A DNA stretch of 54,866 nucleotides from NCBI GenBank assembly GCA_021324435.1, contig JAJPIZ010000003.1, forward strand, positions 1 to 54,866, in the 5' to 3' direction. The DNA comes from Anaerolineae bacterium. GTDB lineage: Bacteria; Chloroflexota; Anaerolineae; Anaerolineales; Villigracilaceae. The notes below the pieces were generated by a model. It had not been told where the DNA came from and made no database searches. It saw only the letters and a program-made list of their open reading frames with translations. The translations under genes were made by a program, and so were the position numbers. Positions 15,386 to 52,026 of this stretch are shown in pieces (the stretch's first letter is position 1; the number at the start of each line of letters is the position of its first letter).

Positions 15386-16576
15386 ATGGAATTCGAAGAT
15401 ATCATAAAACGTGTCGAGTGGCTCGATGAACAGCAGAGAAAGAACAAAACCGCGCTTGGGGAGTTGGGTGAACAATTGACCGCTCTCGAGGCGAGCGTCA
15501 ACGCGCTGACCAAACAGTTCAAGACCATGAGCAAGGAATTTAGCGACATCAGTATTGCCGCGGCGCGCCTGAATCAGTTCGACCAGATCATGGAAAAACA
15601 GCGGGCAGATTTGAACAAATCGCTTGAGGCGGCAGAAAAACAAACCATGCGTCGCGAGGCGGATGCATCCAAACTGCTTCGCGCGGAACTCGATGAGATT
15701 TCAAAAAAGTTGCTGAAACTGGACGAGATCGCCGAGCTGAACAAGAAATTCAAAGAGCGCGTTCACGAAGAACAACGACTCAATCTGGCCATGCAGGATA
15801 TGCAGGCAAAAGTCGAAGAAGCCGTCACACAAAACAGGAATATTCTCACGACCCAGAAAGCAATGGATGAGGCGCGCCGGCAGGACGCCAAGCGCATCGC
15901 AGACTTGCAGGGCGAAATGACCTCCGTCCGCAAGCGCGCCGACGACGCGCGCGAGAAAACTATTTTGCATTCCGACAACATCCGCAGTCTGGAAAGCCGC
16001 GTCAACGAATTGGTGCAGACTGAGAACAGCCGTCTCGAAGCGCAGGCAAACTTCCTTGAACAGCAGGCCGCGATGCAGATGGAACGCGACAAAGCCTGGA
16101 AAGACTGGCAGGAAACATACAGCACATTCAAGAAGCAGGCAGAGAACATGGAAGCGCAAATGACCGCGCTGGACGATTCGATTCGCGCCGCAAAACGCGC
16201 CCAGGATGCCTACAACGATCTGAATCAAAAGCTTGAGCGCCGCATCGCTGAAGTCAGCGAAATGCAAAGGCTGAGCGAGGACCGCATGCGTCAGGAATGG
16301 GTGGCGTTCAAGGCCGACGAACAAAAGCGCTGGACAGGTCACTCCCTTTCACAGGAAGAAGCCATGCGCGACCTCCGCAAAGACATGGACAAACTTGAAC
16401 AGCGCGTGACCTCGCTCGACGATATGTCTCAAACCATGCAGGATCAACTCCATCAAACCACAGACACCACCGAAAAACAATTACAGGAACTGATGAACAT
16501 CTCCAATGAATGGCTCACTGCTTACGAGCGCATCATGGGTCACGGCAAGACGAAAGCAAAGAAATCTGCAAAATGA
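15386..16576 (+). CDS. Long coiled-coil protein (396 aa), unknown function
   Basis: A soluble, highly charged protein that is almost completely heptad-repeat coiled coil from about residue 10 to 380, rich in Gln, Lys, Glu and Ala, with no signal peptide or membrane segment. It begins FEDIIKRVEWLDEQQRKNK and ends in a basic tail (GKTKAKKSAK). There are no catalytic motifs. It has its own promoter and strong ribosome binding site, so it is probably well expressed. A cytoplasmic scaffold, chromosome-associated or SMC-like helper role is possible but not shown by the sequence. Confidence 0.75.
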   Translation: MEFEDIIKRVEWLDEQQRKNKTALGELGEQLTALEASVNALTKQFKTMSKEFSDISIAAARLNQFDQIMEKQRADLNKSLEAAEKQTMRREADASKLLRAELDEISKKLLKLDEIAELNKKFKERVHEEQRLNLAMQDMQAKVEEAVTQNRNILTTQKAMDEARRQDAKRIADLQGEMTSVRKRADDAREKTILHSDNIRSLESRVNELVQTENSRLEAQANFLEQQAAMQMERDKAWKDWQETYSTFKKQAENMEAQMTALDDSIRAAKRAQDAYNDLNQKLERRIAEVSEMQRLSEDRMRQEWVAFKADEQKRWTGHSLSQEEAMRDLRKDMDKLEQRVTSLDDMSQTMQDQLHQTTDTTEKQLQELMNISNEWLTAYERIMGHGKTKAKKSAK

Positions 16577-16581
16577 ATATG

Positions 16582-16609
16582 GCAGGGGCGCAATATATTG
16601 TGCCCCTGC
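16582..16609. repeat. GCAGGGGC...GCCCCTGC hairpin in front of selB
   Basis: GCAGGGGC (16582-16589) pairs perfectly with GCCCCTGC (16602-16609), and the inner bases GCAA/TTGT extend the stem to about 12 pairs. It sits between the coiled-coil gene stop and the SelB start and leaves no room for a normal ribosome binding site. It may end upstream transcription or limit SelB translation. The same outer arms occur at 26124-26152. Confidence 0.65.
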
Positions 16610-18490
16610 ATGAATCGTATGCGCGTTATCGGAACGGCCGGCCACGTTGACCATGGAAAGTCCACGCTCATTGCGGCGCTGACGGGCACGCACCCCGACC
16701 GCCTCAAAGAAGAGCAGGCGCGCGAGATGACCATCGAGTTGGGGTTCGGCTGGCTGACATTGCCCGATGGTGAAGAGATCGGCATCGTGGATGTGCCCGG
16801 GCATCGCGATTTCATCGAAAATATGCTGGCCGGCGTCGGCGGCATTGATGCGGCCCTGCTCGTCATCGCGGCGGACGAAGGCGTAATGCCGCAAACCAAA
16901 GAGCATCTGGCGATCCTCGATTTGCTCCAAATCCCCACCGGACTCATCGTCCTGACAAAAACTGATCTGATCACCGACAACGATTGGCTTGATCTGATGG
17001 AAGCCGATGTGCGGACGGCTGTTCGGCACACGATTCTGCAAGATGCGCCCATCGTCCGCGTCTCTGCCCGGACCCGAAGCGGACTCGACAAACTGACAGC
17101 GACCCTCGCCGACATCCTGCGCGACAAACCCGCGCGCCTCGACCTTGGCCGCCCGCGCCTGCCCATTGACCGCGTCTTCAGCATGGAAGGATTCGGCACA
17201 GTTGTCACCGGCACGCTAACCGACGGCCATTTCGCCCTCGGCGATGAAATTGAAATCCTGCCATCCGGTTTGAGGGGTCGAGTGCGCGGCCTGCAAACAC
17301 ACAAGAAGAAAGAAGAAAGTGCAGTCCCCGGTTCACGCACCGCTGTGAACATTTCAGGCGTCGCCGCGGAACAAATCCAACGCGGCGAAGTGTTAACTCA
17401 TCCGGGTCAATATCGTGCCACGCGCCGCGTGGATGCGCGCCTTCGTCTGCTCAAAGATGCAACCTCGCCGCTCAAACATTCCAGCGAGGTGAAAATCTTC
17501 ATCGGAACCAGCGAGACCGTCGCCGCGCTTCGACTGCTCGGCGCGGAAGAACTTTCTCCGGGCGAAGAAGGCTGGATTCAACTGGAGCTGCGGAATCCCA
17601 TTGTGGCTGTACGCGGCGACCGCTACATTTTGCGCCGCCCATCTCCCGGCGAGACACTCGGCGGAGGCGCCATCGTTGATCCGCAACCCGCGCAACGACA
17701 TAAACGCTTCGATGAAAATGTGCTGAAGAGTCTCGAATCCCTCGCTCAAGGCTCGCCTGCCGACGTTTTATACGAGACTGCGCTGTCCATTGGCATCTCT
17801 TCACCCGGCGAAATGATAGCGCGCTCTCATCTTGAAAAAGATTCTGCCAGCAAAGTCATGGACGAATTGCTGACGTCTGGCAGGCTGGTCAAAATTGACG
17901 ACGACCTCCTGGCGCCGCTTCCACACTGGAATGATTTGAATCAAAAAGTCCTGCAGATCGTCGAAAATTATCACAAAAACTTTCCACTTCGACGCGGCAT
18001 TCCCCGTGAAGAACTCAAGAGCAAACTAAAGTTATCGCCGCGCATTTTCAATGCTGTGATTACGTCAATCGTCAATCGTAAATCGCTAATCGAAAACGGC
18101 GCTTTTGTCGCCGCGCCGTCGCACGAGATTCGCTTCGATAGCGGTCAGCAGGCCAAAGTTCAGGAATTGATGCGGAAGTTTGCGCAGAATCCGTTTGACC
18201 CGCCAACTGTCAGGGAATGTCATGAGGAAATTGGCGAGGAAGTCCTCAATGCGTTGATCGAATCGAATGTATTCATCGCGGTTTCTGCGGATGTCGTGTT
18301 TCGTAAACAGGATTATGATTCGATGACCGCCAGGATTCGCGCCGCCATCGAAAAGAACGGACGGATCACGCTGGCTGAGGCGCGCGACATGTTCAACACG
18401 AGCCGCAAATACGCGCAGGCGTTGCTGGAGCATTTGGACGCCGTTGGAGTCACGACGCGAGACGGCGATGTGAGACGACTCAGAAAATAA
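16610..18490 (+). CDS. selB: Selenocysteine-specific translation elongation factor SelB
   Basis: A 626-residue GTPase. G1 is GTAGHVDHGKST, G2 lies in EMTIELGFGW, G3 is DVPGHRDF and G4 is LTKTD, exactly as in SelB rather than EF-Tu. The GTPase and two beta-barrel domains end near residue 340 (EEGWIQLELRNPIVAVRGDR), and the C-terminal 280 residues form winged-helix repeats of the type that bind the SECIS hairpin. SelB delivers Sec-tRNA to in-frame UGA codons. Starts at 16610 or 16619 are possible; both lie next to the hairpin at 16582-16609. Residues near 485-495 (SIVNRKSLIEN) are encoded by a tandem word repeat (18065-18092). Its presence supports real UGA decoding in this genome, and two UGA-containing genes occur in the window (31136-31612 and 47845-48573). 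Confidence 0.93.
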   Translation: MNRMRVIGTAGHVDHGKSTLIAALTGTHPDRLKEEQAREMTIELGFGWLTLPDGEEIGIVDVPGHRDFIENMLAGVGGIDAALLVIAADEGVMPQTKEHLAILDLLQIPTGLIVLTKTDLITDNDWLDLMEADVRTAVRHTILQDAPIVRVSARTRSGLDKLTATLADILRDKPARLDLGRPRLPIDRVFSMEGFGTVVTGTLTDGHFALGDEIEILPSGLRGRVRGLQTHKKKEESAVPGSRTAVNISGVAAEQIQRGEVLTHPGQYRATRRVDARLRLLKDATSPLKHSSEVKIFIGTSETVAALRLLGAEELSPGEEGWIQLELRNPIVAVRGDRYILRRPSPGETLGGGAIVDPQPAQRHKRFDENVLKSLESLAQGSPADVLYETALSIGISSPGEMIARSHLEKDSASKVMDELLTSGRLVKIDDDLLAPLPHWNDLNQKVLQIVENYHKNFPLRRGIPREELKSKLKLSPRIFNAVITSIVNRKSLIENGAFVAAPSHEIRFDSGQQAKVQELMRKFAQNPFDPPTVRECHEEIGEEVLNALIESNVFIAVSADVVFRKQDYDSMTARIRAAIEKNGRITLAEARDMFNTSRKYAQALLEHLDAVGVTTRDGDVRRLRK

Positions 18491-20548: not shown

Positions 20549-20622
20549 GGGCGCGTAGCTCAGTTGGTTAGAGCGCTACTATCACACAGTAGAAGTCGGG
20601 GGTTCGAGTTCCTCCGCGCCCA
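20549..20622 (+). tRNA. tRNA-Val (anticodon CAC)
   Basis: A complete cloverleaf can be drawn. The acceptor stem GGGCGCG pairs with CGCGCCC over all seven positions, the D arm is GCTC/GAGC, the anticodon stem is CTACT/AGTAG with loop ATCACAC (anticodon CAC at 20583-20585, reading GUG), and the T arm is GGGGG/TCCTC with TTCGAGT in the loop. The discriminator base is A, and CCA is not encoded, so it must be added by the enzyme at 2-433. The T stem contains two G-T pairs (positions 50-64 and 53-61). A perfect hairpin with a T-run follows two bases after the tRNA. Confidence 0.93.
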
Positions 20623-20623
20623 C

Positions 20624-43401: not shown

Positions 43402-44138
43402 TTCATCCGCTTCCTTTCGGACCTGTGTCCGGCTTCCGTTAAATGAACCACTTCCCCGTCCACGATTTGAAGACTGCGCGTGAAGCGGGGACCGAGACTG
43501 TTATCGTGCGTGACCATGATGATGGTTTTGCCGCGATCCTGTACGAGATGTTCGAAGACATCGAAGATGTGATCGGCAGTGACAGAATCCAAACTGCCGG
43601 TCGGCTCATCTGCGACGAGAATAGGGGGGTCGTTGGCAAGCGCCCGGGCAATCGCCACGCGCTGTTGCTGCCCGCCGGAGATTTGCGTGGGAAGTTTATC
43701 CATCTGATCTTCGAGTTCCACCAACGCCAAAAGTTCACGCGCCCGCTCGCGGGATTCACGCGGCTTGAAGTTTCCGCACAAATCCATCGGCATCATCACG
43801 TTTTCGACCAGGGTGAGCATCGGCAACAATTGAAAGGATTGAAAGATGACGCCCAGTGTCTGCCCGCGCCAAAGAGCCAATTCATCTTCGTCGAGTTGAT
43901 GGACCGATACAGTGTGACCGTTGGCGCGCACAAGGACTTCGCCGGAGGTGAGATGGTCCACGCCTGTGATCATGTTGAGCAGGGTGGATTTGCCCGCGCC
44001 GGACTTTCCAATCACACCGAGGAACTCGCCTTTCTTCACTTGAAAGTTGACGTCGTGGAGCGCGTTGAAATCGCCTGCCTCGGTGGAATAAACCTTCGTC
44101 AAGTTTTTTACTTCGATGATGGAAGAAGAGACTTTCAT
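43398..44138 (-). CDS. ABC transporter ATPase, LolD/MacB type
   Basis: A 246-residue ATPase with complete motifs: Walker [11 protein letters not shown]-loop [10 protein letters not shown], signature [15 protein letters not shown], Walker [13 protein letters not shown] and switch His VTHDNS. The start at 44138 ([10 protein letters not shown]) is chosen because it places the first strand correctly; the frame upstream to 44228 has no family similarity. Its stop overlaps the start of the second ATPase gene (ATGA). It is the first gene of the export operon (two ATPases, permease, adaptor) and should pair with the signature-defective second ATPase or with itself. Confidence 0.93.
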
Positions 44139-44336
44139 GAAGACCCGTGAAAAAAGCGGCCCACCCGCGGCCGCCGAAGACGTTCTGTCGAGCGATTGGA
44201 TTGTAATCCTGTTCAACGTGCAAGGCAAATTAGAAAGTCTTCATTTTCATCCCAGACTCACCTTCCTTTCCTATTTGCAGAACCGTTTATTTCGAGTATG
44301 CTTGTCGGAAATCAGAGACCAAAGCGAGGAGAGTCT

Positions 44337-45764
44337 GTGGCAAAAAGCGCCTCCATACGAGCCTTCAAATGTCCATCCTGCGGCGCGCCGATTGAACCCG
44401 AAGTCGGCACGCTGACCATGAAATGTCCGTATTGCGGCGGGACTGTCATCATCCCTGAATCATTGCGCACGCCTCCGCCCTCCGCCGGGCCGACATTGAA
44501 CGATGCCTTTCAATTTGGACTCAACGGCATTGATTTGAATCAAATCGTCGGCAATGCCATGCAATTGCCGGAAGCGCTCTCGCTTGCCAAGCAGGGCCGC
44601 GTGGACGAGGCCGCTCAGATCTACAGTCGTATCACCGGCATGGAACATGAGGATGCGGTCAAGGCCGTGCAAGCCATGGCTGGAGGTCACGCGGTGGCGT
44701 TGACGCCCGGGCGGCCCGGAACAAACTGGCAGACGATGAAGGTGGATTATTCGAGCCAGCCTGTTTTGCAAACATCCACCCCATCCACCTTTTCGGGAGA
44801 GACCTATACGCCCTCCGCGACAAAAAGAAGCGGGGCATCCTGCGCTTTAATCGTTGCGATCCTGGCCTGCATCAGCATTCTTGCAGGAGCGATCCTTTTT
44901 GTCCCATCTGTGTTTGGAGCGTTTTCCTTTTTCAGTCCGCTGAGTTCAATCGGGTTTGCAAACAAAACGCTGTCGTTTGGCGGCGAGGGGATCGGACAGG
45001 GCCTTTTCGAAGACGCGCGCTCGATTGGCGTGGATGGCGACGGAAACATCGTCGTCGCGGAATACAGCAACGGCCGCCTTCAAATCTTCGACCCGAACGG
45101 CAAATTCGTTTCGATGTTCTCCCTCGGACCAAAGACCTACGTGCAGGCGACAGCCGTGAGCCATAATGGAACGATTTATATTGTCACTGGCGGAAAGATT
45201 TTGATTTACAACGAAAGCGGCCAACAGACCGGCGAGATCAGCGATGATAATCATGATTACAATGATGTAACCCTCGGAGCGGACGGCACGCTTTACGCGC
45301 TCTCCGATAACGAAACCATCGTCCGCTTCAAACGGGACAACAGCATTGATCTCGAAATTCAGAATTCGATCAGCGACATCACCGGCGACAGCGATATTGA
45401 TACACATCTCGCCGTGGACGGTCTCGGCAACATGTATATCCTCGGAAACTTCACCTACGCTGTTTTCAAATATTCGCCGCAGGGAAAATTCATCAATCAA
45501 TTTGGAAGCGAAGTCAAAGGGTCCGATAGCGACCCGGCCAAGTTCCAGGGGCCGATCACCATCGGCGTGGATGGCTATGGCCGCATCTACGTGGACGACA
45601 TCTTCGAGATCAAAGTTTTCGATTCGACCGGCAAATACATCAGCAGTATCGGTGATAACGACGGCGCGGTGTTTGGAATGGCCTTCGATAGCCAGAACAA
45701 TTTGTACACGGTCAGCAAAAACAAGGTCGCGAAATTTTCCGTGAAAAAGCCGAGCGATAACTAA
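44337..45764 (+). CDS. Zinc-ribbon membrane protein with extracytoplasmic NHL/beta-propeller repeats
   Basis: A 475-residue protein starting at GTG 44337, which is preceded by GAGGAGAG; an in-frame ATG at 44298 lacks a ribosome binding site. The N terminus carries a zinc ribbon (FKCPSCGAPIEPE then MKCPYCGGTVI), followed by a short helical region and one membrane segment (about 167-200, CALIVAILACISILAGAILF). Outside the membrane, residues 220-475 form NHL-like propeller blades: RSIGVDGDGNIVVAEYSNGR, LQIFDPNGKF, AVDGLGNMYILG, TIGVDGYGRIYVDD and AFDSQNNLYTVS. NHL propellers bind proteins or ligands; the function here is unknown. It is divergent from the export operon with about 200 bases between. 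Confidence 0.82.
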   Translation: MAKSASIRAFKCPSCGAPIEPEVGTLTMKCPYCGGTVIIPESLRTPPPSAGPTLNDAFQFGLNGIDLNQIVGNAMQLPEALSLAKQGRVDEAAQIYSRITGMEHEDAVKAVQAMAGGHAVALTPGRPGTNWQTMKVDYSSQPVLQTSTPSTFSGETYTPSATKRSGASCALIVAILACISILAGAILFVPSVFGAFSFFSPLSSIGFANKTLSFGGEGIGQGLFEDARSIGVDGDGNIVVAEYSNGRLQIFDPNGKFVSMFSLGPKTYVQATAVSHNGTIYIVTGGKILIYNESGQQTGEISDDNHDYNDVTLGADGTLYALSDNETIVRFKRDNSIDLEIQNSISDITGDSDIDTHLAVDGLGNMYILGNFTYAVFKYSPQGKFINQFGSEVKGSDSDPAKFQGPITIGVDGYGRIYVDDIFEIKVFDSTGKYISSIGDNDGAVFGMAFDSQNNLYTVSKNKVAKFSVKKPSDN

Positions 45765-45765
45765 A

Positions 45766-45990
45766 CTCGCAATTCAAATTGTCGCAGGCAAGGTCAACAA
45801 AAAGGGATTGGATTTTTACGACCGGCTCGTAGATGAATTGTTCAAAAAATCGAACCGTACGTCTGTCTATTTCACTGGATTTGTCGCAAACTCTCCAAGG
45901 CAAAGGCGGATGGCCAGGCCGCCGAATTTTGGCGGGACGCGCCTGTCCGTTTCTGGAACCCCTCAGCGCAGACGCAAGGCACATGCTTTC
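45766..45990 (+). pseudogene. Remnant of a glycoside hydrolase family 1 (beta-glucosidase-like) gene
   Basis: Translation from 45766 gives LAIQIVAGKVNKKGLDFYDR then LVDELFKKSN, matching the part of GH1 enzymes that reads G-K-V-N-x-x-G-L-D-F-Y-D-R-L-V-D-E-L. After a frame change, 45879 onward gives LDLSQTLQGKGGWPGR, corresponding to the later GH1 motif W-D-L-P-Q-x-L-x-D-x-G-G-W. The family then loses similarity. No start, catalytic glutamates or full barrel are present, so this is a decayed fragment. It fills most of the gap between the propeller gene and upp. The end coordinate is approximate. Confidence 0.6.
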
Positions 45991-46023
45991 GAGGCTCCAC
46001 TGCGCGGCGTGAGTCATCCGGGC

Positions 46024-46029
46024 TATAAT
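46024..46029 (+). promoter_or_regulatory. -10 box of upp
   Basis: A perfect TATAAT lies 23 bases before the ATG, with a strong GGAGGAG ribosome binding site at 46043-46049. The -35 region (TGCGCG, 46001-46006) is weak. Confidence 0.5.
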
Positions 46030-46052
46030 TAAAATAACCTTTCGGAGGAGAA

Positions 46053-46679
46053 ATGCCCAACCTCTTTGCGTCGAAACACCCGCTGATTTTGCACAAACTT
46101 TCCCGCCTGCGCGACAAAAACACCGAGCCGAAGAAATTCCGTGAGCTGGTGCGCGAGATCGCCGCGTTGCTGACCTACGAGGCCACCGCGGATCTGGCAG
46201 TCACGCCGCGCGAACTCGAGACTCCGCTGGCGAAAATGACCGGCTATGAATTAAAAGAGAAAATCGGCCTCGTGCCGATTCTGCGCGCGGGACTTGGCAT
46301 GGTCGAAGGCATCTGGGAGTTGATGCCGGTCGCGGAAGTTTGGCACATCGGACTCTATCGCGACGAACGGACCCTCAAGCCTGTGGAGTACTACAACAAA
46401 CTACCCATCGAGCCGACTGTTTCGGTGTGCCTCATTCTGGACCCGATGCTGGCCACCGGCGGTTCGGCCACCGCCACCGCTGACGTCTTGAAGCGCTGGG
46501 GCGTGAAGAAGATCAAGTTCGTCGGGCTGATCGGCGCGCCGGAGGGCATCAAAATGATGCAGGATCACCATCCTGACATTCCGATTTATCTGGCGGCCAT
46601 TGACGACCATCTCAACGAACGCGGGTACATCGTGCCGGGACTCGGTGACGCGGGTGACCGTCAGTTTGGGACAGGATGA
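46053..46679 (+). CDS. upp: Uracil phosphoribosyltransferase
   Basis: A 208-residue Upp, the standard length. It has [20 protein letters not shown] at the start and [13 protein letters not shown] (about residue 73). The PRPP-binding segment is [20 protein letters not shown] (about 128-147), followed by [10 protein letters not shown], and the uracil-binding end is [16 protein letters not shown]. It turns uracil and PRPP into UMP, completing the salvage route that the pyrimidine-nucleoside phosphorylase at 28711 can feed. A promoter and strong ribosome binding site precede it. Confidence 0.97.
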
Positions 46680-46680
46680 T

Positions 46681-46714
46681 TCAGTGTTCAGTGGTTAGTG
46701 ACCAGTAATCAGGT
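46681..46714. repeat. Intergenic word repeat (CAGTG variants)
   Basis: Several imperfect copies of a CAGTG/CAGTA word between upp and the alcohol dehydrogenase gene, the same kind as at 38388-38420. Confidence 0.5.
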
Positions 46715-46721
46715 GTAGCTT

Positions 46722-47777
46722 ATGAAAGCCATGCTTCTGCGCGAGACCGCGCCGCTTGCACAAAATCCAACTCCGCTTTCGCTCGTGGACTTGCCGGAGG
46801 CAAAACTCAACGCGGGCGAAGTCTTGATTCGTGTCATCGCATGCGGAGTGTGCCACACAGAACTCGACGAAATCGAAGGACGGATGAGGCCGCGCTTGCC
46901 CATCATTTTGGGGCATCAGGTGGTCGGAATAGTCGAAGAAGTCTCACAAGTCGAACAAGTCAAAGAGGGGCCTGTAAGACCCATTGGACTTGTTAGACCT
47001 GGCGACCGCATTGGCGTGGCGTGGATTGCATCCGCGTGCGGAAAGTGTGAACATTGTTTAGCGGGAAATGAAAATCTGTGCGCGGAGTTCAAAGCCACAG
47101 GCCGCGACCTTGACGGTGGTTACGCCGAGTACATGACCGCCCGCGCGGACTTTGTGCATCCTATTCCTGAATCGTTGAGCGACATAGAAGCCGCGCCGTT
47201 GTTATGCGCGGGCGCAATCGGATATCGTTCCTTGAGGCTGGCGAATCTCCGCGATGGACAGTTGCTCGGCCTGACCGGTTTCGGCGGATCGAATCATCTT
47301 GTGCTGAAGATGGCAAAATACAAATATCCGAACGCGAAAATTTTTGTCTTCAGCCGCAACCCGGCGGAACGCGAGTTCGCGTTGTCACTTGGCGCGGATT
47401 GGGCCGGCGCGATCGAGCAGAATCCACCTGCAGAGTTGGACGCGGTGATCGAGACCACGCCCGTTTGGGGTCCGGTAATGGAGGCGTTGAAGCATCTCAA
47501 ACCGGGAGGCCGGGTTGTCATCAACGGCATCCGCAAAGAAGAGTCGGACAAGGAAGCGCTGACGAAGCTGGATTATCCGTCGCAGTTGTGGATGGAAAAG
47601 GAGATCAAGAGCGTGGCGAACGTGACGCGGCAGGACGTGCGCGAGTTTTTGTCGCTGGCGGCGGAGGCGGGCATCAAGCCGGAGTTTCAGGAGTTCGAAT
47701 TGAAGGACGCAAACGCGGCGCTGTTGGAAATGAAGCAGGGTAAAATTCGAGGGTCGAAGGTGTTGCGCGTGAGTTAG
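46722..47777 (+). CDS. Zinc-dependent alcohol dehydrogenase family protein
   Basis: A 351-residue medium-chain dehydrogenase. The catalytic zinc site includes Cys in IACGVCHTELDE and His in ILGHQVVG (Gln instead of the more common Glu after His, as in one bacterial subgroup). The structural zinc loop is CGKCEHCLAGNENLC. The nucleotide-binding region reads LLGLTGFGGSNHLVLKMAK, and PLLCAGAIGYRSLRLANL precedes it. It should oxidise or reduce an alcohol/aldehyde pair with NAD(P). A segment near residue 72 (VSQVEQVKEGPVRPIGLVRP) is encoded by an ACAAGTC/GACTTGT word repeat (46933-47000) and appears inserted between the GHQ motif and the zinc loop. The substrate is not known. Confidence 0.88.
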   Translation: MKAMLLRETAPLAQNPTPLSLVDLPEAKLNAGEVLIRVIACGVCHTELDEIEGRMRPRLPIILGHQVVGIVEEVSQVEQVKEGPVRPIGLVRPGDRIGVAWIASACGKCEHCLAGNENLCAEFKATGRDLDGGYAEYMTARADFVHPIPESLSDIEAAPLLCAGAIGYRSLRLANLRDGQLLGLTGFGGSNHLVLKMAKYKYPNAKIFVFSRNPAEREFALSLGADWAGAIEQNPPAELDAVIETTPVWGPVMEALKHLKPGGRVVINGIRKEESDKEALTKLDYPSQLWMEKEIKSVANVTRQDVREFLSLAAEAGIKPEFQEFELKDANAALLEMKQGKIRGSKVLRVS

Positions 47778-47844
47778 TGTTAACCACAGATGAACATTTT
47801 CACTAGATGGCTGGACATAACCTCAATAAATCCAAAATCAAACT

Positions 47845-48573
47845 ATGCCCCTCCTCAAAGACCCTGAACGGACGGAAACAAAAGCCCTGCATCGCTTTGC
47901 TGATTTCGACGGCAAGCGCATGCTCGAGATCGGTTGCGGCGACGGACGCCTGACGTGGCAGTATGCCAAGTCAGCAAAATTCGTATCGGGCATTGACCTC
48001 GAAGCCGATGACCTGCGTCTGGCGACGATTGACCGCCCTTCTGATCTGCCCGTTTCATTCGCCCGCGCCGATTCGATTCACCTCCCCTTTGGTAAAGAAA
48101 AATTCGACATTGCCATCCTCGCCTGGTCGCTCTGATGAATTCAGCATGAGGGCATGGTCCATGCCCTGAGTGAGATTCATCGTGCCCTTGCGCCGAATGG
48201 AATCCTGATTGACCTGCGCCCGCTGACGGGCGGCTGGCCAATTGAAGTCGCCTCGAGCCGCGAAGTCATAGAGGCCGGACGCGTCAGCGATTTGCCGGTT
48301 GGCCTGGAAGATGACAAAGCCGCCAACGAGTCTATGGCGCGGGCCGAGTCGCAAAAGTGGTTCACGCGCGAGCGCGAAGAGTATTTTCCCTTCTTTTATT
48401 ATTGGGACTCGCCAAATGAGATGAAGAAATACATTGACGAGGACTGGGCAGACTTCGTCACCATTGACGAGGAAACCTGGAAGAGCATCCGCTCGCTGTG
48501 GGCCGTGGCCGATGCGGACGCCCGGATGAGGGTCCGCGTGAAGATGCTGATCTCGCGGTGGAAGAAAAGTTAA
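47845..48573 (+). CDS. SAM-dependent methyltransferase with two adjacent in-frame UGA codons (probable selenoprotein)
   Basis: Read through TGATGA at 48133-48138, this frame gives 242 residues of a class I methyltransferase: motif I MLEIGCGDGRLTWQYA, acidic motif GIDLEADDL, FARADSIHLPF, then FDIAILAWSL, two UGA codons and IQHEGMVHALSEIHRALAPN, GILIDLRPL. The UGA pair lies at the end of the fourth strand, between two parts that together make one continuous domain, and the frame stays open for 145 further codons. A perfect 19-base palindrome starts 10 bases after the second UGA (48149-48167) and looks like a SECIS. Alternatives are a gene with double nonsense mutation, or termination with restart at the ATG at 48154 inside the hairpin. 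The substrate is unknown. Confidence 0.75.
48149..48167 (+). promoter_or_regulatory. SECIS-like hairpin of the methyltransferase gene
   Basis: AGGGCATGG-T-CCATGCCCT is a perfect palindrome. As RNA it forms a seven-pair stem with the loop G-G-U-C-C. Counted from the second UGA, the stem starts at nucleotide 14 and G-G-U lies at 21-23. E. coli fdhF SECIS also has G-G-U-C at the loop tip. Confidence 0.65.
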
Positions 48574-48665
48574 ATATCCTGCGCCAATTTTTACGGGATG
48601 CGGAGGAGCGCAGAAAAAGTTTTTTGCCATCCGCACTCGTCAGCGTTTATCCGCGTCCAACTTTT

Positions 48666-49424
48666 TTACTTCACATCCACGCCCGTGATACGCGCCAGAA
48701 CAAAATGGATCAGCGCGATGGGCAAGACCAACGCCGCGTGCAACGCCGCGCTCAGCCCGAAGATGACCGCCGTAACGCGCATGAAATCATTCAACAACGG
48801 CGCAAGGTGTTCGAGCATCCACGGCCCCGCGCCGGCCAAGACAGCCAGCGCGATCAACACAATGATTCCCACGCCGAGCGGCGTCCACGCATGGCGGTCG
48901 GACCGCGAGGGCAACATGGTACTGCTGATGGTGAACACCAGATAAAACCAAATGGGGAAGTCCTTGACCTGCGGGAGAACGGAAACGCCCATCAAAAACA
49001 AGTTGAATTGTCCGTTGCGAAACACATCCCACAGGGGAAGCAAGTCCAGCCGCGTCACGGCCAGATACGCCACGATCAACCCGCCGGAAAAAAGCGGCGC
49101 CGCGCCGATCAAGGAATCGCGCACAATGTCCGTCTTCACGGTTTCCACATAGCCGAGTTGCAAACGTCCATCCGGCAACATCTGCGGCACGAGCGAAAAC
49201 CTGGCGGTGCGCACGCCGAGAATCACCGCCATCAAATAATGACTGAACTCATGCAGTAAAACCCCCGGCCAAAAAATAATCGAGAACATCGCAATCGTAA
49301 ATTCAGGACTGCGGCTGAGAATCAAAAGCACGGCTTGTATCTCGCGATGCAAAAGCCGCTGGAGAAATACCAGCGGCAGGAGGGTCAATGCAAACCAAAA
49401 AAGTCCATCAAACGAAGTCGGCAT
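48666..49424 (-). CDS. Site-2-type (M50-like) membrane metalloprotease
   Basis: A 252-residue membrane protein with about six hydrophobic segments. The zinc-binding motif HEFSH (H-E-x-x-H) lies in GVLLHEFSHYLMAVILGVRT (about residues 55-74), inside a membrane helix as in site-2 proteases. The further conserved D/N-x-x-P-G-type motif of classical RseP/SpoIVFB proteins is not obvious, so it may be a divergent member. There is no PDZ domain. It is the last gene of the gap-pgk-pknB-tpiA group; its ATG touches the tpiA stop (TAATG). Substrate unknown. Confidence 0.75.
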   Translation of the reverse strand: MPTSFDGLFWFALTLLPLVFLQRLLHREIQAVLLILSRSPEFTIAMFSIIFWPGVLLHEFSHYLMAVILGVRTARFSLVPQMLPDGRLQLGYVETVKTDIVRDSLIGAAPLFSGGLIVAYLAVTRLDLLPLWDVFRNGQFNLFLMGVSVLPQVKDFPIWFYLVFTISSTMLPSRSDRHAWTPLGVGIIVLIALAVLAGAGPWMLEHLAPLLNDFMRVTAVIFGLSAALHAALVLPIALIHFVLARITGVDVK

Positions 49425-50215
49425 TAGTCTATGGTCAATTGTCCACGGTCTAGTCGGGATGCCGCTTTCGTGATCGCCGCAAATTCATCGGCTTTGAGGC
49501 TCGCGCCGCCGACCAGCGCGCCGTCAATTTCAGGCTGATTGAAAAATTCGGACGCGTTGCCTGCATTCACCGAACCGCCATACAAAACGCGGATGGCTTG
49601 CGCGGTCGCCTCACCGAACAGTGCGCTCATCGCCGGACGAATGACCTTGCTGACCACTCCATTGGCATTTTCTCCGCTGGAGGCTTTGCCCGTTCCAATC
49701 GCCCAAACGGGTTCATACGCGATGACAATGCGCGGCGCGAACGCCGAATCCGCGTCAGCCAGGCCAAGCTTGATTTGGCGCGCGACCACTGCCTCGGTCC
49801 GGCCCGATTCGTATTCATCCAGTGTCTCCCCCACACACACAATCGGGGTCAAATCAAATTTTTGCGCGGCGCGCAATCGCTTGTTGACTGTCTCATCTGT
49901 TTCGCCAAAATAGGCGCGCCGCTCGGAATGTCCGATGATCACATACTTGCACAATTCCTTGATCATCAACGGCGAGACCTCGCCGGTGAACGCGCCTTTT
50001 TCTTCCCAATACATGTTCTGCGCGCCCAGGCCGATGTCCGTGCCTGCGAGCATCGTTGAGATCGCCATCAAACTCGTGAACGGCGGACACAACACTTTTT
50101 CAACGCCGCCGATCTCGCGCAGACGCGCCGACATCGAAGAGACCAGTTCCCTGGCCTCCGCAATGGTCTTATTCATCTTCCAATTTCCGGCAACCAGTGG
50201 AATTCGTTTCGTCAT
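49424..50215 (-). CDS. tpiA: Triose-phosphate isomerase
   Basis: A 263-residue TIM with all active-site parts: GNWKMNKT (Asn and Lys), VIIGHSERRAYFGETDE (catalytic His), VIAYEPVWAIGTGKASS (catalytic Glu and flexible loop) and LYGGSVNAGN. It interconverts dihydroxyacetone phosphate and glyceraldehyde 3-phosphate. The ATG at 50215 overlaps the stop of the kinase gene (ATGA), so translation is coupled to PknB. The last codons (RLDRGQLTID) are encoded by a GGTCAATTGTCCACGGTC word similar to the repeats in queA and the UDG gene. Confidence 0.97.
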   Translation of the reverse strand: MTKRIPLVAGNWKMNKTIAEARELVSSMSARLREIGGVEKVLCPPFTSLMAISTMLAGTDIGLGAQNMYWEEKGAFTGEVSPLMIKELCKYVIIGHSERRAYFGETDETVNKRLRAAQKFDLTPIVCVGETLDEYESGRTEAVVARQIKLGLADADSAFAPRIVIAYEPVWAIGTGKASSGENANGVVSKVIRPAMSALFGEATAQAIRVLYGGSVNAGNASEFFNQPEIDGALVGGASLKADEFAAITKAASRLDRGQLTID

Positions 50216-52026
50216 GGAAGTCTGTTGTACAAATTCTGAGCCATCTCGCGCACCCAATCCGGCGTATTGAGATCGGCCAGCAGAATGTTCAGAATTTGTT
50301 TGGCCGCAAAAGTCTTGCCCTCTTGCGCGTCCATCTCTGCTTCGAGCAGTGCAGATTCGGACATGCCCGGCTTGAGGCGCTTCACTTCATTTAATTTTGC
50401 GTGTCCATCCTCGGGATGGCCGTTGAAATAAAGATAACGCGCTTCGGCCACCATCGTGATGGGTTGCTCGACTCGACTCACCGAATCAAACGGAAGCGAA
50501 GACGGCAGATCAACCGGCGAAGTAGCCGCTTTATAAAGCGCTTCATGGAAATTATTTACCATGTCCTCGGTCGGTTTGCCCGTTGGTCCCAATGACTTGA
50601 TGACGCGCAAGTACATCGCGGCGGCAGGCACCCAGGCTTCGCGTTTCCTGAATTCATCGCCTGCCATCTGGAAAAACTGCGTGTTGGCTGTGCCGGCCAG
50701 ATCAGAAGCCTTTGCCAGCGCCACCAGCGAGTCGCGCGTTTGACCCGCATCCCAGTACGCGAGCGAAAGTTGAAGGTTCGCGCCGGGATCGTTGGGATTC
50801 TGATTCAAATGATCGAGCGCGGTTGCAATCGCAGGCGGAATGGGAGTTAGTGAAGGCGAAGCCGGCGGCGTATCGGTTGGATGCGGAGCCGTGGCTGTCG
50901 GCGGAGGAAGATGCGTTGGAGGCGGCAGGGTCGGTACAGCAACCGTCGGATTTGCTGGATTCAAAAAACGCGCGCCGCCGCGAAAAGCAATCAAGACAAA
51001 GACAACGCAGATCAACAACAACACGCCGGTCGCGATGAGGGGCCACGGCGAACGCTTCTTTCCCGGGACCTTTTGGGTGGCCACCGTTTTCGCGGGGGCT
51101 GCCTCGCCCTTGGCAGGCGCGGCTTTGGTTCCCTGCTGGGTTTCGGGCTTCAGAGAAGTCGGGCGCATCGTGATGGCCGTGCCTTGCATTGGGATGCCCG
51201 CCTGTGTCCATGCGTCCTTGAACGCCTGCGACAATTCGTTAACCGTTGCATAACGGTCGGAACGTTCTTTGGCCAGCGCCTTCAACAAAACGCGCTCGAC
51301 GGTTTCCGGCACCTTGGGGTTGATGGCGCGCGGCATCGGGAGCGGCGAATAAATATGATCGTGAATAATGGAGAACGGTGTATCGGCGTTGAACGGAACT
51401 TGTCCCACCACCATCTCGTACAGCATCACGCCGAAGGAATAAATGTCCGTGCCTTCGTCGAGGTCTTTCTTGCCCATGGCCTGTTCGGGCGAGATGTATT
51501 GCGGCGTGCCCATGATCATATCGGATGAAAGAGTCGACTCGCCGGATTGAGCGATGCGCGCCAGCCCGAAGTCCGCCAGGTAGATGCCGCCATCCGTGCC
51601 CATCAAAACGTTGGACGGTTTGATATCGCGATGCAGGACGCCCTGCTTGTGCGCGTACGCCAGCGCCGAACCGACTGAGTCCACGACTTTGCGAATCTCG
51701 TCCGAGGTCAACGGGCCCTGGGTCAACCGCGCCTTGAGCGTATCCCCTTCGATGAATTTCATCACCAGATAAGGCCGGTGTTCATGCTCCGCATAATCGT
51801 AAACCGGCACAATATTGGGATGTTCCAGTTTTGCCACGAGCCGCGCTTCGCGCTGGAAGCGAGCTTCAAAATTCGGGTCCTCCCCAAATGCCGGATGAAG
51901 AGCCTTGAGAGCCACATAACGGTCGAGCGCGGCATGATAGGCTTTGTACACAGTTGCCATCCCGCCCTGACCCAGTTGCTCGATGATTCGATATGGACCG
52001 ACGTTCTCGCCTACATTGAAAGACAT
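50212..52026 (-). CDS. PknB-type Ser/Thr protein kinase with extracytoplasmic TPR-like domain
   Basis: A 604-residue transmembrane kinase. The kinase domain (about 11-270) is complete: glycine loop LGQGGMATVYKAYH, Lys in VALKALHP, HRD motif VLHRDIKPSNVLM, DFG motif LADFGLARI, and activation/P+1 region GTPQYISPEQAMG. A juxtamembrane linker is followed by one membrane segment (about 332-352), a Thr/Pro-rich stretch (PTLPPPTHLPPPTATA) and an outer domain of TPR-like helices (about 405-600). No PASTA repeats are present, so it does not sense muropeptides in the usual way. It is encoded within a glycolytic cluster and overlaps tpiA, suggesting a link to central metabolism. A TATAAT-like -10 (minus strand, 52058-52063) precedes it. 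Confidence 0.93.
   Translation of the reverse strand: MSFNVGENVGPYRIIEQLGQGGMATVYKAYHAALDRYVALKALHPAFGEDPNFEARFQREARLVAKLEHPNIVPVYDYAEHEHRPYLVMKFIEGDTLKARLTQGPLTSDEIRKVVDSVGSALAYAHKQGVLHRDIKPSNVLMGTDGGIYLADFGLARIAQSGESTLSSDMIMGTPQYISPEQAMGKKDLDEGTDIYSFGVMLYEMVVGQVPFNADTPFSIIHDHIYSPLPMPRAINPKVPETVERVLLKALAKERSDRYATVNELSQAFKDAWTQAGIPMQGTAITMRPTSLKPETQQGTKAAPAKGEAAPAKTVATQKVPGKKRSPWPLIATGVLLLICVVFVLIAFRGGARFLNPANPTVAVPTLPPPTHLPPPTATAPHPTDTPPASPSLTPIPPAIATALDHLNQNPNDPGANLQLSLAYWDAGQTRDSLVALAKASDLAGTANTQFFQMAGDEFRKREAWVPAAAMYLRVIKSLGPTGKPTEDMVNNFHEALYKAATSPVDLPSSLPFDSVSRVEQPITMVAEARYLYFNGHPEDGHAKLNEVKRLKPGMSESALLEAEMDAQEGKTFAAKQILNILLADLNTPDWVREMAQNLYNRLP

Follow-up and report, generated by a model that had tools for sequence, protein, structure and literature searches.

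A bacterial class I methyltransferase family with a predicted vicinal selenocysteine pair encoded by consecutive UGA codons

The stretch of DNA analyzed here (the window) comprises 54,866 nucleotides of contig JAJPIZ010000003.1 from an Anaerolineae bacterium. At 47845..48573 on the + strand lies an open frame with a single break, the hexanucleotide TGATGA at 48133-48138. The open reading frame list splits this locus into two frames, the second of which, of 139 aa, begins at ATG 48154. Reading through both codons yields a product of 242 aa with the motif A-W-S-L-U-U-I, in which the first UGA (48133..48135) would encode Sec97 and the second (48136..48138) Sec98. Residues 27-122 of the read-through protein match the Pfam model Methyltransf_11 (55.6 bits, cut-off 21.2), which places both UGAs within the domain. 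Across 42 diverse members of the family only four positions are invariant, namely the two Sec/Cys columns together with G30 and G32. Frame, domain and homologues thus identify a class I SAM-dependent methyltransferase with adjacent U97 and U98, and the first-pass annotation was correct in describing a SAM-methyltransferase domain broken only by TGATGA. A SECIS-like hairpin follows the two codons at 48149..48167 (+). Upstream, at 46722..47777 (+), is a zinc-binding alcohol dehydrogenase-like gene (TIGR02822, 257.5 bits, below the cut-off of 283.5). The window also encodes the Sec-specific elongation factor SelB at 16598..18490 (+), as had been noted before (TIGR00475, 347.4 bits, cut-off 242.25, match at 16625-18484); a tRNA-Val (CAC) gene is found about 2 kb behind selB, at 20549-20623.

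Homologues were sought in two overlapping sets: 150 relatives (search 1) and, with a profile, 400 genomes of the phylum (search 2). Among the matches listed for the 150 relatives, at least 53, in 47 genomes, carry one or two in-frame TGA codons. In the phylum search, 46 genomes contributed 51 matches at E <= 1e-18, all of them with one or two TGA, and 32 of these (29 genomes) were new relative to search 1. Both searches together yielded at least 85 TGA-bearing matches in at least 76 genomes. We extracted a set of 84 sequences, consisting of 83 of the 85 TGA-bearing matches and one TGA-free member from the 150 relatives (G124). The two columns are Sec-Sec (UU) in 55 of them, Sec-Cys (UC) in 21, Cys-Sec (CU) in 7 and Cys-Cys (CC) in 1; codon 1 is TGA in 76 and TGT/TGC in 8, and codon 2 is TGA in 62 and TGT/TGC in 22. 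Residues other than Cys or Sec, and the codons TAA and TAG, are absent from both columns in the 84 extracted members, and two matches outside this set (G033:C127, UU; G340:C96, UC) agree, so that the homologue comparison proposed in the first-pass annotation turned out in favor of its reading. Across the 84, in-frame UGA stands where homologues have Cys, which is the pattern that marks a selenoprotein. Several genomes hold the gene in duplicate, at times with copies of different type (G013, UU and CU; G228, UU and UC), and in one genome two UC-type copies lie about 4 kb apart (G007:C16:16716-22331).

With the first profile, members scored at least 89.8 bits, and the next two sequences in the examined loci, at 50 and 40 bits, lack the pair. 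Because this cut-off could hide Cys-only members, a wider profile (A3) was rerun on the phylum genomes. It gave 51 matches of at least 189 bits, 51/51 with TGA, in phylum searches that scored the best 6 or 7 candidates per genome and could thus miss TGA-free members. Below these in the ranking came a G174 gene lying in two frames, the second piece with UU, and then TGA-free matches in G396, G276 and G493 at 75-84 bits (73.6-83.0 bits in a later comparison); the last three were considered as Cys forms and rejected, being other methyltransferases in which the pair is absent. The G174 locus (L162, G174:C26:112600-114200) is a UU member split between frames just before the motif, through decay or assembly error. 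Among 13 other methyltransferases picked by hand, L002 from the window’s own genome has His-His and L147 has Cys-His at the site, and the remainder show other residues or gaps, with one alignment stopping short of the site. A scan of genome contigs with the window protein returned 122 stretches, none of them a relative, and a scan with the diverse alignment (one pattern over WSLCC) returned 29, none confirmed; neither tblastn of plasmids at 1e-10 nor a DNA pattern search of viral contigs gave a match.

With the two columns masked, the 84 sequences were placed on a quickly searched maximum-likelihood tree, which implied at least 17 changes of Sec/Cys state. Column 1 accounts for 4 changes and column 2 for 14, counts that are approximate given that 23 of the 81 inner branches are weak. 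For 17 pairs compared before and behind the site, 49 of 51 dN/dS estimates fall between 0 and 0.46. One of the other two has no value, and the second (0.93, upstream part) is attributable to misalignment, because that pair differs by a 2-residue gap. These estimates indicate that the codons on both sides of the UGAs are under purifying selection, in agreement with the earlier remark that the sequence around them is intact.

Besides selB, the window’s own genome encodes selA (548 bits), tRNA-Sec (68 bits) and selD (G000:C28:26110-27042, - strand; 350 bits). The selD gene contains one in-frame TGA, and SelD is probably itself a selenoprotein. The full set of selA, selB, selC and selD, whose absence would have spoken against a selenoprotein, is therefore present. 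At a self-chosen and not sharp threshold of 54 bits, tRNA-Sec was detected in 42 of the 47 carriers of TGA-bearing genes in the set of 150 relatives versus 76 of the 103 others, and in 25 of the 29 further carriers from the phylum; scores of 54.7-58.2 are seen in four genomes that belong to one family, and below the threshold the highest scores reach 53. Nine of the 76 carriers lack a tRNA-Sec at this threshold (G006, G053, G068, G089, G091, G303, G333, G387 and G443). These assemblies are all drafts, with 180 to 1100 contigs each, and the missing genes probably reflect assembly gaps. In G124, the sole CC genome found (86% complete), there is no credible tRNA-Sec (best score 44.7 bits), as expected for a genome in which the methyltransferase is CC.

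The hairpin is formed by a 19-base palindrome, AGGGCATG-GTC-CATGCCCT (48149-48167), which gives an 8-bp stem with a GUC loop or, alternatively, 7 bp with the loop GGUCC. The 3-nt loop begins 18 nt after the second UGA and 21 nt after the first. The RNA from 48133 to 48190 has a folding energy of -24.9 kcal/mol, whereas shuffled versions average -14.75 (z -3.64) and none of the 200 folds as well. The bacterial SECIS model, as set out in PMC13188914, specifies a stem of 4-16 bp, a loop of 3-9 nt with an early G, 16-37 nt from UGA to loop and an MFE <= -7.5; the window hairpin fits the model in that form, and the palindrome had rightly been placed at SECIS distance. An Rfam scan of 44001-52000 gave no match. 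An automatic SECIS check at both UGA positions, with a script that also accepted G as the loop-closing base, was passed by 79 of 83 genes, including 21/21 UC and 4/7 CU forms. The four failures are L032 (UU), which has the usual hairpin sequence with a different predicted fold, and the CU forms L058, L089 and L109.

Covariation was analyzed in 81 aligned genes (80 distinct rows), that is, the 83 minus L089 and L109, whose hairpins differ. In this alignment 92.5% of cells are paired, versus 21-58% in slid versions. Double changes that keep pairing occur in 6 of the 8 stem pairs, and the covariation score was reached by 0 of 500 shuffles; for the count of further pair types, 76 of the 500 reached the observed value, and 29 of 80 rows leave the outermost stem pair open. 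RNAalifold found the same stem unaided, with pairing-preserving double changes in 5 of 6 pairs. In a test that kept the protein and exchanged synonymous codons, the native hairpins were on average more stable than their recodings: the mean z was -2.05 for UU (n=55), -1.59 for UC (n=21), -1.70 for CU (n=7) and -0.53 for CC (n=1), and means at six other places ranged from -0.13 to +0.13; gene by gene, values <=0.05 were obtained for 31/55 UU, 11/21 UC, 5/7 CU and 0/1 CC. The clearest sign of hairpin constraint in these sequences, and a nearly synonymous one, is that the third base of an Ala codon tracks its partner codon: opposite a G-initial codon (Gly, or Asp/Glu in two), Ala is encoded by GCC in 56 of 59 genes and by another codon in 3, and opposite an A-initial codon (Ser) by GCT in 22 of 23 and by GCC in 1 (two of the 84, having no Ala codon, are omitted). 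The stem also coincides with a recurrent peptide, MVH in 62 and MVD in 14 of the 84; the remaining 8 are L089, L109, the CC form L090 and five genes whose stem mostly pairs by other letters. MVH/MVD is lost in a clade of three in which the hairpin differs or is absent. The stem RNA thus seems to write part of the protein, with the peptide G/S-M-V-H/D-A-L at 48150-48167 imposed by the hairpin.

On this comparative evidence, we consider it very likely that both consecutive UGAs are read as Sec, so that the product is a class I SAM-dependent methyltransferase with a vicinal Sec-Sec pair. The first-pass annotation had proposed such a pair from the window’s own letters, and the Cys/Sec exchanges at both columns and the SECIS element across the family, together with the sel genes of the window’s own genome, now argue for it. 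A tandem TGA is far beyond chance, because the same codons carry it in 55 of the 84 extracted homologues. As a mechanism, we propose that SelB would deliver Sec-tRNA at the first UGA, the ribosome would advance by one codon, and the same SECIS would act at the second, with one hairpin about 20 nt downstream serving both. The hairpin can apparently serve each UGA alone, because 21/21 UC and 4/7 CU forms have it at the same spacing, and from this we infer that both positions of a UU gene can receive Sec. One SECIS therefore probably serves the two UGAs in turn.

The best surviving alternative to this double decoding is that one UGA is an efficient Sec codon and the other a weak or regulatory stop, with a short protein as the main product and the full-length form rare. 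Tandem insertion from a single SECIS may well be inefficient, and the UC and CU relatives manage with one Sec. However, both UGAs are kept in 55 of 84 members across distant families, a stop should also occur as TAA or TAG, which no member has, and the single-UGA relatives use each codon alone with the hairpin at the same spacing; we therefore regard this explanation as improbable. A pseudogene, a sequencing error, or two genes with a stop at TGATGA and a restart at ATG 48154 could account for the 139-aa frame and for the frame-shifted copy in G174, yet this reading has a negligible probability and is ruled out by the conservation pattern: at least 85 TGA-bearing matches carry the codons at the same place in all that were extracted, recurrence in at least 76 genomes makes an error implausible, dN/dS is low downstream of TGATGA, single-UGA forms have a Cys codon in the other column, the CC form is uninterrupted, and the methyltransferase domain spans the site. 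Genome-wide reassignment of UGA to another amino acid would explain an in-frame UGA within an intact gene, but it is rejected as next to impossible because the alternative codons are TGT and TGC only, a SECIS and the full Sec machinery are present, and TGA apparently works as a normal stop codon at the end of the 396-aa frame (15386-16576) that precedes selB.

Same-strand neighbors within 250 bp of the methyltransferase gene are common (66 candidate ORFs) and differ from clade to clade, and none is common to the whole family in the 61 loci mapped. The alcohol dehydrogenase-like neighbor (cluster c1) is found in 13 of the 61 loci, mainly in close relatives; together with uracil phosphoribosyltransferase and glycolytic genes it recurs mainly in the window’s own family, and one alcohol dehydrogenase locus (L107) belongs to another family. 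Since the recurrent neighbors are mostly confined to that family, they point to no operon-based function. In G370, an ArsM-like gene (L126, 3453-4189, - strand) with an in-frame UGA and the motif U-I-A-G follows the UU gene at a distance of about 36 bp. Its best NCBIfam match is ArsM_AhpD_UU, at 189.9 bits below the cut-off of 510, and a search for a neighbor of this type across the examined loci found it in G370 only. G092 has two matches with one TGA each, which do not adjoin its UU gene.

RebM/UbiE-type methyltransferases (PDB 6uv6, 5gm1 and 3bus, the last of which we take to be RebM) are among the closest solved structures by profile. In the profile alignment the pair lies directly behind strand 4 of the Rossmann fold. 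The SL-x-x motif has the same position in 6uv6, a sugar O-methyltransferase, and in 5gm1, with His-His and Cys-His, respectively, opposite Sec-Sec. Such histidines have been proposed as catalytic in RebM. By this comparison the pair probably replaces the His-His or Cys-His of other methyltransferases and lies in the active site, where it most likely points toward the SAM methyl group; the placement is taken from the alignment, because single-sequence structure prediction of the window protein reached a mean pLDDT of only 36. Since the 42 diverse members have no invariant Cys outside the pair, a two-selenium site would consist of the pair alone. Two selenolates would bind a soft electrophile, most likely a metal(loid) or chalcogen compound, and hold it for methyl transfer, and the pair may cycle via a diselenide, thereby reducing an oxidized intermediate. 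We put this chemistry forward tentatively, just short of an even balance. Our best guess for the substrate, a soft metal(loid) or chalcogen compound, has weak support from the ArsM-like gene in G370, one of the 61 loci mapped, and from the arsenite assignment of several selenoprotein methyltransferases noted below. Alternatively, the Sec pair could be a redox switch or a covalent nucleophile acting on an organic substrate, a serious possibility toward which we are nonetheless somewhat skeptical. The position of the pair is held by His-His in RebM-like enzymes and by a nucleophilic Cys in some C5-methyltransferases, and no metal gene is a shared neighbor, all of which would suit an organic substrate. 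Against it, one family member adjoins a Sec-containing ArsM-like gene, and several selenoprotein methyltransferases are filed as arsenite methyltransferases in Table 1 of PMC13188914.

Comparison with known families sets the window protein apart. It matched 39 NCBIfam models at E <= 0.1, and the best 25 of the 39 all fall below their cut-offs. The best match is to CpaM, the corrinoid protein-associated methyltransferase (NF043040), which all 42 diverse members match and which the window protein matches at 45.2 bits versus a cut-off of 180. MduS (NF045649), methyltransferase/UXPK-star (NF047649), ArsM_DUF2284_UU (NF041536) and ArsM_AhpD_UU (NF041537) share with the window protein a bacterial class I SAM-methyltransferase domain and, as predicted for it, Sec. 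The window protein scores 26.2 bits against MduS (cut-off 380), 20.1 against UXPK-star (cut-off 460) and 18.2 against ArsM_DUF2284_UU (cut-off 575), and the G370 member scores 33.5 against ArsM_AhpD_UU (cut-off 510), the NCBIfam selenoprotein methyltransferase models being longer than the domain matched. ArsM itself (NF008823, selenoprotein form UxxG) would be alike in its predicted SAM-methyltransferase fold and Cys/Sec chemistry, but it is outside the best 25 of the 39 window-protein matches, only 8 of the 42 members match it at 1e-5, and the G370 member reaches 27.6 bits versus a cut-off of 263, so the family is not assigned to ArsM.

In the literature, a 2022 review (PMC9312934) mentions ArsM and an enzyme of DNA repair in its passages on methyltransferases, a search of the deep-Sep paper (PMC12013277) for the word “methyltransferase” found none, and the relevant part of PMC1242214 deals with pyrrolysine methyltransferases. 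No bacterial case was among the matches listed in searches for selenoprotein methyltransferases or for Sec or UGA in tandem, vicinal or consecutive arrangement; tandem UGA codons appeared in one abstract, on an Ebola virus gene. The family has probably been overlooked in databases because standard gene calling would split these genes in two. Its members amount to a natural recoding experiment: the hairpin has a single position common to the UU, UC and CU forms and is missing from the CC form, a set that allows one to measure how one SECIS serves two neighboring UGAs. The 2026 review PMC13188914 gives the motifs as CxxU in MduS, UxxG in UXPK-star and ArsM_DUF2284_UU, and UxxG/CxxU in ArsM_AhpD_UU, with no adjacent Sec-Sec among them, and its Table 1, a catalogue of 119 prokaryotic selenoprotein families, lists neither a Sec-Sec motif nor a family of this kind. 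On balance we favor, with modest confidence, the view that what distinguishes the present family is a combination of features: it would be spread through one phylum and almost exclusively Sec-dependent, with a vicinal diselenol catalytic center that replaces His-His and binds or reduces and methylates a soft substrate, with consecutive UGAs decoded by one SECIS, and with a hairpin that writes its own peptide. If this is true, active-site chemistry at a vicinal Sec pair would be new.
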